From the IMG/VR virus record IMGVR_UViG_3300023174_000418, positions 1 to 33,790 of that record: DNA of 33,790 nucleotides; one strand, written 5' to 3'. Positions 1,451 through 9,975 of this stretch are shown here, in pieces. The stretch comes from a virus. Numbering within the stretch: the first letter of the stretch is position 1; the number at the start of each line of letters is the position of its first letter. The notes beneath the pieces were generated by a model. It worked only from the letters and a program-made list of their open reading frames with translations, did not search any database and was not told the DNA's origin. A program made the translations under genes and the position numbers.

Positions 1451-2608
1451 TTATTGCGTCAAAGTGTTAGTCATTGAATCGAAAGGGATTCCCGATTCTG
1501 CGTGGGTTGCTGCCTTGCCAGTGAACTCCTGCCAGCGCTTTACTATCACGTCGCAGAAACGCGGATCAAACTCCATTACAAACGCCTGCGCTCCATGTTT
1601 TTCAGCGGCAATCAATGTAGAACCGGAACCCCCAAAAAAATCGGCAATCGTTTTCACCGACAACTTAAACCTTTTTAGAATCCATTCCATCAGAGCCACG
1701 GGCTTCTGCGTCGGATGAACCCGATTGGTTTTTTCCGACGCAAGCGTAAATTGCCTCACAACGCTTCTGAAATTTGCCCAAGCCAGTTCGCAATCGGTCT
1801 GATCTGACTGACCGTTGTTTTTGTCCCAAACCAACCAACACTCGCTGTCGGGCAGGACGGAACAATAATAATTGGCTCCCCACCAAATTTGTTTGGCTTC
1901 TGGGTATAGACCATAAATCAACCGAAAACAATCCTTTGCAACGTCAGGAGTGTCATCGCCCAAAATATCCTGTTTGTAATTTTTTTTCAATACCGACGAT
2001 TTGCTGACCGCATTCATCCCGTAAGGTGGGTCTGTATGAATGCAATCTGGATATGTTCCATCCATCAACTTCTCAACCGCGTCAATCGACGTAGAATCGC
2101 CGCACATTAGCCGGTGCTTGCCCAGTATCCAAACGTCGCCCAATCGCGTTGTAGGCTTTTCTGGAGCCTCTGGCACGTCATCCTCGTCGGTCAACCCGTC
2201 CGTGCCTTCGGTGACGCTCAGAAGCGCGTCCAGCTCCTCGGTCGTGAAACCGGCAATCGTTGCGTCGAAACCCATCTCTTGCAGATCGCCTAGCTCAAGC
2301 CGCAGCATTTCATCGTCCCACCCGGCATTCGATGCGAGCTTGTTGTCGGCAATCACCAGCGCTTTCTTTTGCGCCTTAGACAAATGGTCCAGCACGATGA
2401 CCGGAACCTCGGTCAATCCGAGCTTGCGAGCTGCCGCTAAACGACCGTGGCCAGCAATGATGCCGTTCTTCCCGTCAACCAGGATCGGATTAGTCCATCC
2501 GAACTCACGAACGCTTGCAGCAATCTGCGCGACCTGCTCGTCGCTGTGCGTCCGGGAATTGTTAACGTAAGGAATCAGCGCTTCAATCTTGCGCTGTTCA
2601 ACTTGCAT
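1451..2608 (-). CDS. ParB-like nuclease domain fused to DNA methyltransferase
   Basis: A 385-residue two-domain protein. Residues about 5-90 form a ParB/Srx-type domain (NNSRTHSDEQVAQIAASV, then IIAGHGRLAAARKLGL). The rest is a DNA N-methyltransferase with motif IV DPPY at 193-196, HPTQKP at 298-303 and the SAM-binding FGGSGS at 325-330, an order seen in beta-class enzymes. The start is taken as the ATG at 2608, which overlaps the previous stop as TGATG; a TTG four codons upstream is a weaker choice. No restriction endonuclease lies nearby, so it is probably an orphan methylase that protects phage DNA or marks it before packaging. The target sequence cannot be read from the protein. Confidence 0.9.
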   Translation of the reverse strand: MQVEQRKIEALIPYVNNSRTHSDEQVAQIAASVREFGWTNPILVDGKNGIIAGHGRLAAARKLGLTEVPVIVLDHLSKAQKKALVIADNKLASNAGWDDEMLRLELGDLQEMGFDATIAGFTTEELDALLSVTEGTDGLTDEDDVPEAPEKPTTRLGDVWILGKHRLMCGDSTSIDAVEKLMDGTYPDCIHTDPPYGMNAVSKSSVLKKNYKQDILGDDTPDVAKDCFRLIYGLYPEAKQIWWGANYYCSVLPDSECWLVWDKNNGQSDQTDCELAWANFRSVVRQFTLASEKTNRVHPTQKPVALMEWILKRFKLSVKTIADFFGGSGSTLIAAEKHGAQAFVMEFDPRFCDVIVKRWQEFTGKAATHAESGIPFDSMTNTLTQ

Positions 2609-2883
2609 CAGCAATTCCAATTCTTTAACGACGCTTTAGCCCGCTCTGCTGGTCCCTTTGCCTTCTTTACAACACCTTCCATCCTGGCACAAAAACTAGC
2701 CTTGCGACCTTTATCTGCGTCGGTCTTTGGATTCGGCGCTGGTGGTTTGAGATTGGCGTTGTTCTTGGCGTTGTATTCAGCACGACCTTTCGCAGTCATC
2801 CCGGCGCCCTTCTCGGTCGGGTTGTAGGTCTTGCCCTTCCCCGTTGTGGTCCGGGGAATGGGCTTGTCGTGCTTTGTAGCCAT
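2608..2883 (-). CDS. Small basic phage protein, DUF6321-like
   Basis: A 91-residue, lysine-rich protein with KGAGMTAKGRAEYNAKNNAN, a central SFCARMEG and a C-terminal KASLKNWNC. This layout (GxTxKGRxxYN ... SFCARM ... W-C) recurs in a family of uncharacterised phage proteins that I associate with DUF6321. Its high positive charge and conserved Cys pair suggest nucleic-acid or metal binding, but that is inference. It overlaps its downstream neighbour as TGATG and its upstream neighbour as TAATG, so the three are translationally coupled. Confidence 0.75.
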   Translation of the reverse strand: MATKHDKPIPRTTTGKGKTYNPTEKGAGMTAKGRAEYNAKNNANLKPPAPNPKTDADKGRKASFCARMEGVVKKAKGPAERAKASLKNWNC

Positions 2884-3756: not shown

Positions 3757-4011
3757 TTATTCCACGACCGCGCAAACGTCGGCCTCTTGGATGATTTGAT
3801 AATCCTGACCGTCCTTGTTGTGGGTCGGCCAATTAAGGTAGTCACCGTTGCCGTACTTGATCCAGTCACCGACCTTTGCTTCTTTAACCTGGGGTCCGAC
3901 CGCAACGATTCGACCTTCATTAAATGGCTCTTTGTTGGTGACGTGGATCACGTCTGAGAGTTTGCGCACCGCCGGTTGCACGGTGATGAAGTCACGTAAC
4001 GGTCTAATCAT
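3757..4011 (-). CDS. GroES-like co-chaperonin (Cpn10 family)
   Basis: 84 residues that align along the whole Cpn10 fold: IRPLRDFITVQP at the N-terminus (GroES IRPLHDRVIVKR), EGRIVAVGP (RGEVLAVGN), AKVGDWIKYGNGDY (VKVGDIVIFNDGYG) and a C-terminal DYQIIQEADVCAVVE (EVLIMSESDILAIVE). The mobile-loop region SDVIHVTNKEPF keeps a short hydrophobic stretch where GroES has IVL, the tripeptide that docks on GroEL. It would act as a lid on host GroEL, probably for folding coat protein, as T4 gp31 does. The ATG overlaps the upstream stop (ATGA). Confidence 0.85.
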   Translation of the reverse strand: MIRPLRDFITVQPAVRKLSDVIHVTNKEPFNEGRIVAVGPQVKEAKVGDWIKYGNGDYLNWPTHNKDGQDYQIIQEADVCAVVE

Positions 4012-5338: not shown

Positions 5339-5628
5339 GCAATAAGCGCCTCTTTAAGTTGTGATTCCTTCATTGTAAAAATGTCCTTGTCTTTGAAGAT
5401 TTTTTCAATCCAAGGTCTGACCCATAAATAACTTGTGCCGGCTTGCGCGTTTCGCTCAATCAAGTTCTTTGTTGTCAGCTTGACGTTGCCATACGAAACC
5501 CACAAATGCGGGGTCAAGTAGTGCGGCACGAACATCGCCTGGTTAAGCCAGAACACTGGCTGAATGTCAGGAAAGCCAATCTCAGACTCGTCGGCTTTGT
5601 ACACAAACCGTCCATTAGTAAATTCCAT
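5335..5628 (-). CDS. Protein of unknown function, early operon
   Basis: 97 residues from the ATG at 5628, chosen because a strong Shine-Dalgarno GGAGG lies 6 bases upstream; a TTG eight codons earlier lacks one. The sequence is aromatic-rich (PVFWLNQAMFVPHYLTPHLW, SYLWVRPWIEKIF). I recognise no domain. It overlaps the HTH-like gene upstream by 14 bp and the Cys-rich gene downstream as ATGA. Confidence 0.65.
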   Translation of the reverse strand: MEFTNGRFVYKADESEIGFPDIQPVFWLNQAMFVPHYLTPHLWVSYGNVKLTTKNLIERNAQAGTSYLWVRPWIEKIFKDKDIFTMKESQLKEALIA

Positions 5629-5917
5629 CAACAGCCTCCACAGGTTTGCCAAGCGTTCTCAAAATGGCGCAATTCTCTGGCTCACGATTGCTGGCGGTGC
5701 CGCTTCCATCGTAATAAATGTAGCTCGCTCGGTTGGTTGTGCAAGACTCATCAATGCGTCGGGAAAGTTTGCCAACCCGGAAGCCCTGGCGCAGCTTTGC
5801 ATCAACATCCTTTGAGCTTAAGCCGGGAAAGTATTGAGCGCATTGCTTTGACGTCATTGCACCATGATTGGCAATGATTTGAATTGGATCTATTTTATTT
5901 TCCATTTTATTAAACAT
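5615..5917 (-). CDS. Small putative winged-helix protein
   Basis: 100 residues. The segment IANHGAMTSKQCAQYFPGLS followed by DVDAKLRQGFRVGKLSRRI reads like a helix-turn-helix and recognition helix; ASYIYYDGS could be the wing. It sits between the SSB-like gene and an unknown gene, close to the origin, so a role in replication or early control is possible. No clear Shine-Dalgarno precedes either the ATG at 5917 or the one at 5905, so translation may be coupled to the gene upstream. Confidence 0.6.
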   Translation of the reverse strand: MFNKMENKIDPIQIIANHGAMTSKQCAQYFPGLSSKDVDAKLRQGFRVGKLSRRIDESCTTNRASYIYYDGSGTASNREPENCAILRTLGKPVEAVDGIY

Positions 5918-5922
5918 TTAAA

Positions 5923-6297
5923 TCAAAAAGGAATGTCGCTGTCATCGTCATCTGCGAAACTGGATGCGCGGCCCTGTGGCGCGTTTTGCATCCGAGCTGG
6001 TGGGGTAGCCTCACCCGCTTGCTGAAAGCCGCTCCTGTGACCGTCTAGGTGCCTTTTTGGGCCATGATCGACCCGGGTTGTCGGTTCGCAAGCGTTTCCA
6101 ATCGAAATTGCAGCGTACTGCATCCCGCTGGCAGCGGTTTTGATCGTGACGTCCAGCCAGTGCATCGTGCCGTCTGGCAAGCAAACCCGGCCTTTGTAAT
6201 CGGCGTGCCAATCCTCGATCTTTTTGTCATTCGGGAAGGCAGCACCCTTGCCAGGTTTCTGCTCGTAATTGCCTTTGGCTGCGATTGGTTTATTCAT
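5923..6297 (-). CDS. SSB-like protein with acidic DIPF tail
   Basis: 124 residues from the ATG at 6297 (a GTG at 6306 is an alternative that overlaps the upstream stop). The N-terminal half (WHADYKGRVCLPDGTMHWLDVTIK) has OB-fold-like alternating strands. It is followed by a disordered Gly/Gln/Pro linker and an acidic tip, DDDDSDIPF, almost the same as the bacterial SSB tip DDDIPF that recruits host replication and repair enzymes. I infer single-strand DNA binding; the core is not a textbook SSB. It sits near RusA and the origin. Confidence 0.65.
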   Translation of the reverse strand: MNKPIAAKGNYEQKPGKGAAFPNDKKIEDWHADYKGRVCLPDGTMHWLDVTIKTAASGMQYAAISIGNACEPTTRVDHGPKRHLDGHRSGFQQAGEATPPARMQNAPQGRASSFADDDDSDIPF

Positions 6298-6302
6298 TTG
6301 AT

Positions 6303-6551
6303 TCACTTTAGATTGTTTCTCAGGATTTGGTCGGTCACAACTTCGGATAAAAGCTCCTCCATTGTTTCGACCTCGGGTTGTTTGGCATCAATTCGGCGTC
6401 TGATTACCGATTCGATGCCGGTTTGCAATTGCGCTGACGTCATGTCCAGAGCAATCAATTCGTTTACCAGCTTGCTGCTTATTTGTGCACCTTTTATTTT
6501 TTTCAAACCTCCTCTTATTTCTTTAGTAAAATTAAATATAGAGTCTTTCAT
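6303..6551 (-). CDS. Helical protein of unknown function beside the origin
   Basis: 82 residues, predicted mostly helical (LVNELIALDMTSAQLQTGIE, then EELLSEVVTDQIL), with a basic N-terminus (FTKEIRGGLKKIKG). It is the first gene left of the iteron array; the first repeat touches its start codon. That position makes it a candidate iteron-binding protein or autoregulator, but no DNA-binding motif is recognisable. Its stop nearly touches the start of the SSB-like gene. Confidence 0.6.
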   Translation of the reverse strand: MKDSIFNFTKEIRGGLKKIKGAQISSKLVNELIALDMTSAQLQTGIESVIRRRIDAKQPEVETMEELLSEVVTDQILRNNLK

Positions 6552-6629
6552 CTTAGTCTTAGCTCCTTGTCGAAGATCTTAGTCTTAGCTCTCTTAGTCT
6601 TAGATCTTAGTCTTAGATCTTAGTCTTAG
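6551..6629. repeat. Five 12-bp direct repeats (iterons) TCTTAGTCTTAG
   Basis: Perfect copies lie at 6551-6562, 6577-6588, 6592-6603, 6605-6616 and 6618-6629. The last three are spaced 13 bp apart. Each copy is itself a tandem TCTTAG pair. The array sits between the start of the 82-residue gene and the DnaA-box cluster, the usual layout of an iteron-type origin or a multi-site operator. Confidence 0.85.
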
Positions 6630-6726
6630 ATTTCTACGCGCACGCGTATATGAAGAAAAGTTATCCACAGGGTTATCCACAGGGTTATCCACAGATTGTA
6701 GGGTAGTTATCCACAGGTTATCCACA
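6551..6726. other. ori: Putative replication origin: iterons plus five DnaA boxes
   Basis: Five perfect consensus DnaA boxes TTATCCACA lie in the same orientation at 6661-6669, 6673-6681, 6685-6693, 6707-6715 and 6718-6726, just right of the five-copy iteron array. The region has no gene, and recombination and SSB-like genes surround it. Such a cluster is far beyond chance. It implies that host DnaA starts replication here. The iterons, or the AT-rich flank at 6630-6660, may be the unwinding element. Confidence 0.82.
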
Positions 6727-6728
6727 GG

Positions 6729-6896
6729 CTACTTTGTGGGGTTTTTTAGGCTGTTTTCGCGCTCTCTTTCAATTTCTTTTACGATCTCTTTCTCCTCTTT
6801 TTTATAATCTCTGAGCGGTTTACCAAATATGTCCATTGCCCTGTAGGGCATCCGTTCCAACCGTCTTTTGGCTTCTAAATTTGCCTTTTTGCTCAC
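6729..6896 (-). CDS. 55-residue charged helical protein
   Basis: A GTG at 6896 overlaps the RusA stop as GTGA and opens a 55-codon frame ending 3 bp before the DnaA-box cluster. The product is a very charged helix (KKANLEAKRRLERMPYRAMD, then KKEEKEIVKEIERERENS). I recognise no family. The coupled start and the absence of any other frame in this 160-bp stretch support it. Confidence 0.6.
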   Translation of the reverse strand: MSKKANLEAKRRLERMPYRAMDIFGKPLRDYKKEEKEIVKEIERERENSLKNPTK

Positions 6897-7315
6897 TTGA
6901 TGTTCTCCGACAACCAGACCGTGACCGATCCTTCTTCGGCATATTTTTTGGATACTTTGAGATACATTACCTGAGCATCGTCCTCGTAAACCACGCCGTT
7001 CATCCCGTCTAGCACGGTCTTGGCAATGTTGTCGACGTCTGGCCTGGTCGGGTAAATATCGCCGTCCAGGGCTGCCTGGCGCTTTGCTTTGGACCAGCTC
7101 AAGGGAATGCTCATGGTCGCCTCAATCATGACTCTCAACGGCGTCTTGAGTGGTTCTCTGCCGGCCATTGCTTCGGCAGCTCGCGCTGCGATTAGTGCTT
7201 CGTACTCTCGGGTTACCGCCGGCGTGTAGCTGCGGGGCTTGCCGCCCTGCGTGCTGAACCGTGGCCGACCCTTGCCAACCGGTGGCCCAGGAATTGTGAA
7301 TTGCAACGTCATCAT
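6893..7315 (-). CDS. rusA: RusA-family Holliday junction resolvase
   Basis: RusA cuts four-way junctions made during recombination or replication. From the ATG at 7315 the protein has 140 residues, near the family's usual 120-140. It shows TIPGPPVGKGRPRF at the N-terminus, YTPAVTREYE, and the catalytic block RPDVDNIAKTVLDGMNGVVY followed by EDDAQV with the conserved Asp residues. A Shine-Dalgarno AGGAA precedes this ATG; an in-frame TTG at 7357 is less likely. It is the first gene of the leftward early operon and pairs functionally with the exonuclease and ERF genes on the other side. Confidence 0.93.
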   Translation of the reverse strand: MMTLQFTIPGPPVGKGRPRFSTQGGKPRSYTPAVTREYEALIAARAAEAMAGREPLKTPLRVMIEATMSIPLSWSKAKRQAALDGDIYPTRPDVDNIAKTVLDGMNGVVYEDDAQVMYLKVSKKYAEEGSVTVWLSENIK

Positions 7316-7460
7316 TTCAGTAGGTTCCTTGCTGTTTCCCGAACGGGTTCTTTTCAAGCCGGCGCTCTGTCTGGATTGTTGAAATGTCCCGACAGGGAAA
7401 CTCTTGAGAACGAACGGCAGATGATGCCCGAAGTCGATGGGATTGTGGAGAAAATTTGTA

Positions 7461-8019: not shown

Positions 8020-8975
8020 TGGTCGGCAAAGTAACCCCCAACACAATGCTCTCAGCATCCCGCGTCCCAGCCCTTCTGGGCCACTCAAAGTACGAGACGC
8101 CTAATAAAGTACTGGAAAGCGTTCTGAACGCGCTACAGGACGTAGAAACGCCGTTTGAAGCCAACGAAGCAATGCACTGGGGCAATATGCTGGAGATCCC
8201 GATCCTGCTTGAAGCGTCAGGACGTTTGGGATTGTCCAACGTAGTGCTTGACCATCCAAAAGCGTACTTTCACCCAGACGCGCCGATTGCTTGTTCCCTC
8301 GACGGGAACGGTGACGGTAATGGCCTGGTTGTCAAAGACAATCCCGATGCCGGCGTATACGTTGTCGGCGCCGAATCAATCACGCTCGACGGTGTTGGCG
8401 TACTCGAAGCCAAGCTGACCAGCTCGTATCCCGAAGACTATCCAGCGCTGAGCCGGGGACCGCTACAGCTCCAAGCGCAGATGGACATTACCGGCGCCAA
8501 GTGGGGAGCTGTCTGCGTGCTTTATCAAGGCATCGAGCTGCGCATCTTTTTGTTTGCACCTCACGAGGAGACGCAAGCGCTGATCCGCAAGAAAGCGTTT
8601 GAACTGGAATCAAAAATCACGCATTGGTCCGAGACCGGCGAAGTTGAATGGTACGACCCGGCCACTCCCGAGGAGTACGGCACCAAATGGCCAGGCGATC
8701 CAAACCTTGACTCTGTTGATCTGGGCGATTGGGGAGCAACGCTGGCCGAGCGGATTGTCAAAGCCAAGCAGGAAATCAAAAAGCTCGAAACCACAATCGC
8801 CGACAGCGAGAAAGAACTCAAGGAAATGCTTGGCAATGCAACCAAAGCGCACGCCGAGGAGTTTTTGATTTCCTGGCCCATCCGTAACTATCAAGCGCAA
8901 CCTGCAAAGACTGTACCCGCTAAACCAGCGTATTCCATCCGTCAAGATTCTGTGACCGTAAAGGTGAAGAAATGA
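8019..8975 (+). CDS. YqaJ-type recombination exonuclease
   Basis: 318 residues. This is the 5'-3' exonuclease partner of a single-strand annealing protein, related to lambda Exo. Family marks are HWGNMLE (53-59), ACSLDG (91-96, catalytic Asp), LEAK (129-132, catalytic Glu and Lys) and LQLQAQMD (149-156). The C-terminal third holds a coiled-coil segment (KAKQEIKKLETTIADSEKEL), common in this family. GGAGG precedes the ATG. It overlaps the ERF gene as ATGA, so the two are made together. Confidence 0.93.
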   Translation: MVGKVTPNTMLSASRVPALLGHSKYETPNKVLESVLNALQDVETPFEANEAMHWGNMLEIPILLEASGRLGLSNVVLDHPKAYFHPDAPIACSLDGNGDGNGLVVKDNPDAGVYVVGAESITLDGVGVLEAKLTSSYPEDYPALSRGPLQLQAQMDITGAKWGAVCVLYQGIELRIFLFAPHEETQALIRKKAFELESKITHWSETGEVEWYDPATPEEYGTKWPGDPNLDSVDLGDWGATLAERIVKAKQEIKKLETTIADSEKELKEMLGNATKAHAEEFLISWPIRNYQAQPAKTVPAKPAYSIRQDSVTVKVKK

Positions 8976-9760
8976 ACGTCTACAAGAAACTGACCCAAGC
9001 CAGGTTAAAGCTGCTGTCGGCAGAAATGAAAAAGTCTGGCCACAACAAGTTTGCTGGCTATCACTATTTTGAGCTGGGAGACTTTATTCCTGCGATCCAC
9101 AAGATATTTGACGAGCTTGGATTGTGCGGAATATTTACGTTTGAGCACTCAAGCGCAACTTTGACGATCCACGACACCGATGGCAGTGGCTCGATTGTGT
9201 TCTCAAGCCCTGTTGTCTCTGCGACCAAAGTCGAAAAAGATGGGACGCAGAAACCAGAGTCGATTCAAGACATGGGTGGGAAGCACACATATTACCGACG
9301 CTACCTTTGGCTGATGGCTCTTGAGATCACCGAGCATGACTCGATTGACGCCGGTGACAACGCGGAGCGCAGACAAGACAAGCCAGAAGGCAAGCCAACA
9401 AACCCGCTGGATACGGTAGCACCCAAAGCGCTGCCAAAGCCCTCTGAGCCGCCGCCAGACGTGATTGAGTTTGAGGATGGAGCTGGTGGCACCTGGGCGC
9501 TGCGCGTGCCCAACGAAGCCAAGCCACGCTCAATGAGCAACGATGAAGCTGGGTGGATTGTTGAGTTCAACGCGCTGGCCGACGCCGTGATGAAAGCCGG
9601 CAAAGTGCCGCCAGCAGATCGGATTGCCAAGCTCAAGCTCTTGCGTACTGCTAACGACGCTGAAGTTAACCGGATGTCGATGGTCGAACGCGCTCGCTTC
9701 TTGCAGACCTTCTCAGCTCGGATCGGCGCTCTTGATGCGCTGATGAAAGCAGCGGCATGA
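8972..9760 (+). CDS. erf: ERF-family single-strand annealing protein
   Basis: 262 residues. It anneals complementary single strands made by the exonuclease next door and so drives phage recombination. The ERF core is visible in the first 130 residues: SGHNKFAGYHYFELGDFIPA, TDGSGSIVFSSP and SIQDMGGKHTYYRRYLWLMA, followed by the 'D DAGDN' region. The C-terminal half is a Pro/Ala-rich linker and a second helical segment. It overlaps both neighbours as ATGA. Confidence 0.93.
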   Translation: MNVYKKLTQARLKLLSAEMKKSGHNKFAGYHYFELGDFIPAIHKIFDELGLCGIFTFEHSSATLTIHDTDGSGSIVFSSPVVSATKVEKDGTQKPESIQDMGGKHTYYRRYLWLMALEITEHDSIDAGDNAERRQDKPEGKPTNPLDTVAPKALPKPSEPPPDVIEFEDGAGGTWALRVPNEAKPRSMSNDEAGWIVEFNALADAVMKAGKVPPADRIAKLKLLRTANDAEVNRMSMVERARFLQTFSARIGALDALMKAAA

Positions 9761-9975
9761 GGATGGCTCAGATCCGGTTATTGGACGCAATCGGTGGCTT
9801 GGAGAAATCCTTGGGCCGGTTGCCGTCCATGAATGAAATAGCACGGGTTCTGGGCTGTAGCCCCCAAAACGTCCACAAAATGATCAAAAGGATGAGGAGC
9901 AAAAATGAAACAATGTCCACCCTGCCACGGCAATTGCAATCAGGGTCGAAACTGCCCAAGGAGAAACAGCAATGA
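9757..9975 (+). CDS. Small helix-turn-helix protein
   Basis: 72 residues. MNEIARVLGCSPQNVHKMIK is a clean HTH of the LexA/sigma-like type, preceded by a helix LLDAIGGLEKSLGRLPS. The C-terminal 25 residues are polar and probably disordered. Placed right after ERF (ATGA overlap), it is the only clear transcription-factor candidate in the rightward operon and may control early-to-late change or act at the divergent control region. The target is unknown. Confidence 0.75.
   Translation: MRMAQIRLLDAIGGLEKSLGRLPSMNEIARVLGCSPQNVHKMIKRMRSKNETMSTLPRQLQSGSKLPKEKQQ

Follow-up and report, generated by a model that had tools for sequence, protein, structure and literature searches.

Organization of the locus and the phage genome

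The window analyzed was the whole of IMG/VR virus record IMGVR_UViG_3300023174_000418 (33,790 bp). An exact search located five head-to-tail DnaA boxes, TTATCCACA, on the plus strand between positions 6661 and 6726 (6661-6669, 6673-6681, 6685-6693, 6707-6715 and 6718-6726). A nearly invariant spacer, TATGAAGAAAAG (6649-6660), seen in the conservation profile, and a GC-rich palindrome, TACGCGCACGCGTA (6635-6648), part the boxes from five plus-strand copies of a 12-bp repeat, TCTTAGTCTTAG (6551-6629), which together comprise ten CTWAG pentamers; the gap between the repeat and box arrays is 31 bp (6630-6660). On the far side of the repeats lies an AT-rich block (6485-6554), a putative unwinding core delimited by nearest-neighbor stability and synonymous constraint. 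The flanking genes are encoded on the minus strand: the RusA Holliday-junction resolvase (6893-7357; PF05866, E = 9.5e-35), a small ORF between rusA and the boxes (6729-6896), recognized by sequence and conservation, an 82-aa ORF of unassigned function (6303-6551), whose first 20 codons overlap the AT-rich block and which had no family match, and the single-strand DNA-binding protein (SSB; 5923-6306; PHROG 18154). Four related contigs (L025, L033, L034 and L035) had an extra gene just after rusA and before the boxes, by eye methyltransferase-like in L034 and PAPS-reductase-like in the other three, and their boxes and repeats remained together.

Judged from its genes, the genome is that of a P22-like freshwater podovirus of about 34 kb, because it encodes a terminase, a P22-type portal, scaffold, coat, head-closure and ejection proteins, a holin and an endolysin. 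The left end of the window cuts TerL, which is about 52 residues short compared with that of the relative MW202674, and the portal gene begins 53 bp from the right end; in MW202674 the portal gene directly follows TerL, and the genome is therefore close to complete. The early genes include those for RusA, SSB, a YqaJ-type exonuclease and an Erf annealing protein, and neither an integrase nor a repressor was recognized among the ORFs scanned. Elsewhere in the window, a ParB-like nuclease domain fused to an N6/N4 DNA methyltransferase (1451-2620, minus strand) is encoded beside the terminase small subunit, and a phage GroES-like co-chaperonin gene (3757-4011, minus strand) is shared with related genomes at 36-96% identity.

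The host is probably a betaproteobacterium (Burkholderiales or Methylophilales), since the nearest isolates by single proteins, both distant relatives, are MEP301, which infects Methylophilales, and P26218, which infects Rhodoferax. A search of bacterial genomes for the exact repeat pattern gave no match to a host. Homologues of the exonuclease were found in one Burkholderiales MAG contig (52%) and one MAG labelled Chloroflexi (50%), and the box array was absent from both MAGs.

Sequence and conservation of the DnaA boxes

TTATCCACA had no other exact copy in a search of the 33,790 bp of the record itself. Its expected number, counting both strands, was 0.145 per window, and the maximum was two in 200 trials with first-order Markov versions; therefore, five copies within 66 bp are not due to chance. 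The five same-orientation boxes and five 12-bp repeats reported in the initial annotation were exact, lay where it had placed them and occurred nowhere else in the window. The phasing of 12-13 bp that it gave for both blocks held for some intervals and not for others: successive boxes start at intervals of 12, 12, 22 and 11 bp, corresponding to one or two helical turns, and the repeats (starts at 6551, 6577, 6592, 6605 and 6618) at intervals of 26, 15, 13 and 13 bp. The equal copy number, to which it had also attached meaning, proved incidental, as relatives have the 12-mer two to five times and perfect boxes three to five times.

In M. tuberculosis and S. coelicolor, TTGTCCACA serves as the high-affinity DnaA box (PMC4285127), and the DnaA-box consensus TTA[T/A]NCACA leaves position 5 free (PMC10316083). 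The 159 boxes contained 22 substitutions: A became G at position 3 in 14 cases, C became T at position 5 in the other 8, and the remaining positions were unchanged. Seven of the 45 box columns were variable, all of them at position 3 or 5 (P = 2.6e-6 under random columns). Across these natural variants, the substitution pattern is what selection for DnaA binding predicts; together with the identity of the boxes, it makes binding by DnaA very likely. The TGTGGATAA end of the boxes faces the repeats. Bacterial origins vary in box orientation, which in T. maritima is tunable (PMC10316083), so that the reversed orientation is not a strict disqualifier.

A search with RusA retrieved 80 relatives, of which about 33 were close, mostly short metagenomic contigs. 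Each of the 32 distinct variants collected from uncultivated relatives had the module. The boxes, whose loss in close relatives would have counted against an origin in the initial annotation, were kept: with positions 3 and 5 allowed to vary (TGTGRAYAA), five boxes were found in 31 of the 32 variants at a spacing of 11/22/12/12 or one base off. The GC-rich 14-mer was also retained, with its CG/TG order shuffled, and the stretch running from the last box up to where the 82-aa ORF begins was the most conserved DNA of the region across the 32 variants. Five contigs (L008, L012, L018, L023 and L027) stop inside or just past the module; such ends are expected because co-occurring variants share identical sequence there, at which the assembly graph forks. 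In the named relatives, namely MEP301, P26218, EBPR podovirus 1 and two Manatee Spring phages, the array was absent.

The repeat array and its natural inversion

Like the boxes, the repeat TCTTAGTCTTAG had no further exact copy in the 33,790 bp. Read on the minus strand, the repeat unit is AGATCT-AAGACTA with a 13-bp period. AGATCT lies at 6574-6579, 6602-6607 and 6615-6620. A fourth site, 6628-6633, reads AGATTT here; all 31 other variants have AGATCT there. Measured from the palindrome edge, the AGATCT copies of the family have offsets of 3, 16, 29, 57, and 70 or 83, with some copies missing in some variants. AGATCT is the 6-mer that E. coli DnaA binds in single-stranded form within the unwinding element (PMC4285127); this binding has been described for E. 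coli alone, and the host here is probably another bacterium.

Six variants carried AGATCT-TAGTCTT in place of AGATCT-AAGACTA. AGATCT being palindromic, their array is the exact reverse complement of the usual one over its first 32 bp. Three further A-to-T changes beyond the 32 bp always accompanied the inversion, and the remaining CTAAG became CTTAG. All nine haplotype sites switched together, with flanks sharing as much as 99.5% identity with the usual type, and the two array forms therefore look interchangeable. The core-inverted array argues against directional iterons; a contact with the palindromic AGATCT or CTWAG, or simple helix instability, would tolerate inversion. The term iterons in the initial annotation is thus poorly suited, since it implies a phage Rep protein, which was not found, and natural variants exist with the core array inverted. 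The elements fit better as 13-bp unwinding repeats carrying AGATCT. Either DnaA or a small phage helix-turn-helix (HTH) protein may bind them.

The AT-rich block and the 82-aa ORF

By nearest-neighbor stability, no 60-bp window of the genome is less stable than 6495-6554 and no 100-bp window less stable than 6515-6614, and the repeats (6576-6635) ranked third among 60-bp windows for low stability. In 14 related loci, which include overlapping pieces of the same genomes, the block ranked first in 13 and second in one. Synonymous heterozygosity was 0.033 in codons 2-21 of the 82-aa gene, compared with 0.29, 0.29 and 0.20 in the rest of the gene. In two variants, L016 and L028, the start codon and most of the gene were lost and the AT-rich block was retained; on these sequences the 82-aa ORF is dispensable. 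From the low synonymous diversity and the survival of the block after gene loss, the DNA itself, and not the protein alone, is under selection. The block is a putative DNA unwinding element.

The initial annotation had suggested looking for a change in GC skew at this site. The detrended skew minimum lay at 8,086, where gene direction also switches; the measure is confounded by gene direction, and third-codon skew gave no clean pattern. Skew therefore lends the origin no separate support. GATC occurred at 5.9 per kb genome-wide, and the array region was not unusually dense in it.

Replication genes and candidate DNA-binding proteins

Searches for DnaB_C, Phage_rep_O, DNA_pol_A, IstB/DnaC, Rep3_N and lambda P found none in this genome or in five relatives; in the positive controls, the control genomes matched and P26218 gave its polymerase. 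Initiators from outside the searched families may sit among the unassigned early ORFs. The 82-aa ORF was considered as an initiator and rejected, as it was lost in two variants and differences in its sequence do not follow the repeat haplotype. A 105-aa early ORF gave a predicted structure with a pLDDT of 41, a confidence too low for use.

Two small proteins were candidate DNA-binding factors. A 72-aa HTH protein (9757-9975, plus strand), identified by weak HTH matches and alignment, is a candidate phage factor for the repeats; it was nearly invariant across the family, and its recognition helix was the same in both repeat haplotypes. The 128-aa and 142-aa ORFs beside its gene had no detectable homologue in the relatives. 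The second candidate was a winged-helix protein (5615-5917, minus strand), for which AlphaFold2 gave a core pLDDT of about 86-89 and PDB winged-helix matches were found (best E = 1.2e-3).

Proposed origin and alternative explanations

From these features, the segment 6485-6726 is likely to be the replication origin of the phage. The compact, probably host-DnaA-using origin put forward in the initial annotation gained support from the retention of the boxes, the melting-prone neighboring DNA and the lack of a replication gene of the searched families. On balance, we favor an oriC-like phage origin driven by host DnaA; whether DnaA alone suffices, without a phage initiator, is evenly poised. In the favored reading, host DnaA would bind the five same-face, head-to-tail boxes, and the DnaA assembly would act over the spacer and the GC palindrome to open the repeats and the AT-rich block. 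By motif, the AGATCT copies in the 13-bp repeats may be where ATP-DnaA contacts the single strand once opened, much as it does in E. coli oriC. The replication machinery of the host (helicase, primase and polymerase III) would then take over, a step proposed because no phage replication genes were found, and the phage SSB, exonuclease, Erf and RusA would recombine the early copies into concatemers for packaging.

A tailed phage of this size normally encodes at least an initiator or a helicase loader. We tentatively suggest, with more doubt than confidence, that this clade of tailed phages may replicate as mini-chromosomes: a 240-bp mimic of oriC would engage DnaA and the entire replisome of the host, the phage would supply no initiator, helicase or loader of its own, and the unwinding array would have changed orientation in nature and stayed functional. 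If DnaA alone is used, lytic replication would be tied to the initiation clock of the host, and the module would be a very small natural test bed for box spacing, tolerated box changes and repeat directionality, for which the related contigs supply 32 naturally tested origin versions.

The main rival, which we consider rather unlikely, is an iteron-type origin as in RK2 or P1, in which a phage initiator on the CTWAG repeats opens the AT-rich block and DnaA on the boxes is a helper. It keeps this place because the order of boxes, repeats and AT-rich block equals that of RK2 oriV (PMC4980987). The best initiator candidates would be the 72-aa HTH protein and the winged-helix protein, both of which were retained family-wide, and the CTWAG pattern was retained in nearly all repeat units. 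However, homologues of Rep3_N, O and P were not found in this genome or the five relatives, and the repeat period of 13 bp is shorter than that of plasmid iterons, which are 17-22 bp (PMC4980987). RK2 depends critically on where its boxes and iterons lie and which way they point (PMC4980987). The core-inverted haplotype on nearly identical flanks, with no change in the HTH recognition helix between the haplotypes, also weighs against an iteron mode.

The boxes might instead form a DnaA sink, titrating host DnaA in a datA-like manner and thereby stopping host initiation or freeing host resources, without being an origin. Many other phage contigs, including that of Berlinvirus P483, do have DnaA-box arrays without obvious repeats. 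A sink would nevertheless have no need for the conserved fixed spacing, the palindrome, the repeats or the adjoining least stable DNA, and it would leave the phage with no recognized origin or initiator; we regard it as very unlikely here. Still more improbable is an operator or leader for the 82-aa ORF and ssb genes, at which DnaA or a phage repressor would regulate transcription or translation. Although the ATG of the 82-aa ORF lies at the end of the repeats, promoter-like sites were at chance level, and the module was retained where that ORF was destroyed. No RNA structure (fold z of +0.9 as RNA and -0.38 as DNA) and no Rfam match was found, and an RNA element was likewise rejected. An assembly or repeat artefact, which the several related contigs ending within or beside the block might suggest, has a negligible probability and was refuted by independent contigs, as the same module recurs in dozens of them from many samples with gene order intact.

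DnaA-box arrays in other phages

Among viral contigs, about 110 loci outside the family (L087-L232) carried at least three DnaA boxes at exact 12-bp spacing; the initial annotation had called an origin of this kind rare in lytic tailed phages, and DnaA-box arrays are not very rare in phages. The neighborhood fell in the most unstable tenth at 39% of the 72 loci tested outside the family. This enrichment of AT-rich surroundings is modest, so that some of these arrays may be sinks rather than origins. Up to 13 boxes lay nearby in such loci, for example in L101, L096 and L095. An unannotated cluster of perfect and near-perfect DnaA boxes also lies in an intergenic region (about 3440-3575 of L001, equivalent to about 37253-37388 of KP090453.1) of Escherichia phage P483, which is a T7-like Berlinvirus and has its own RNA polymerase. 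The roughly 110 unrelated phage loci point to a broader pattern. Such origins are already known on chromosomes and plasmids, as are DnaA-box arrays in other phages; a limited and partial literature search found no description of a tailed phage that combines an oriC-like origin with the lack of an initiator.

Comparison with known systems

Like the lambda and P22 origins, the module, which lies in the early region of its P22-like phage, combines repeats with AT-rich DNA. Unlike them, it has DnaA boxes and does not lie inside an initiator gene, and no O or P homologue was found; neither iterons inside an O-type initiator gene nor a P or DnaC-type loader could be recognized. The oriR of P1 is a phage replicon with tandem DnaA boxes, GATC-containing repeats and direct repeats, and is comparable to the array described here. 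In P1, oriR serves the plasmid form and requires RepA, and no RepA-like gene was found in the present phage. RK2 (IncP) oriV shares the order of DnaA boxes, direct repeats and AT-rich DNA; it differs in that its iterons are 17 bp, compared with the 13-bp period here, where no TrfA-like Rep gene was detected and the core array also exists naturally in inverted form.

The Bacillus-type basal unwinding system resembles the module in its sequence of boxes, a GC-rich segment and a repetitive low-stability tract. We defined that system as a box, a spacer of at most 16 bp and then at least three DnaA-trios on the correct strand. In the phage, by contrast, the box orientation is reversed (with the order as derived), the spacer is longer than 16 bp and there is no consensus trio tract: the only run of three loose NAN triplets in the genome enters the next box, and no 3'-GAT-5' tract was found.

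Compared with E. coli oriC, the module is phage-borne, its boxes all have one orientation, its core spacing is exactly 13 bp and no IHF consensus was found within 2 kb of the array. R1 of E. coli oriC presumably points in the opposite direction to the phage boxes relative to the unwinding region. The two nevertheless share a cluster of 9-mer DnaA boxes beside low-stability DNA with AGATCT repeats of about 13 bp, and E. coli oriC uses no dedicated extra initiator, just as none was recognized in the phage.
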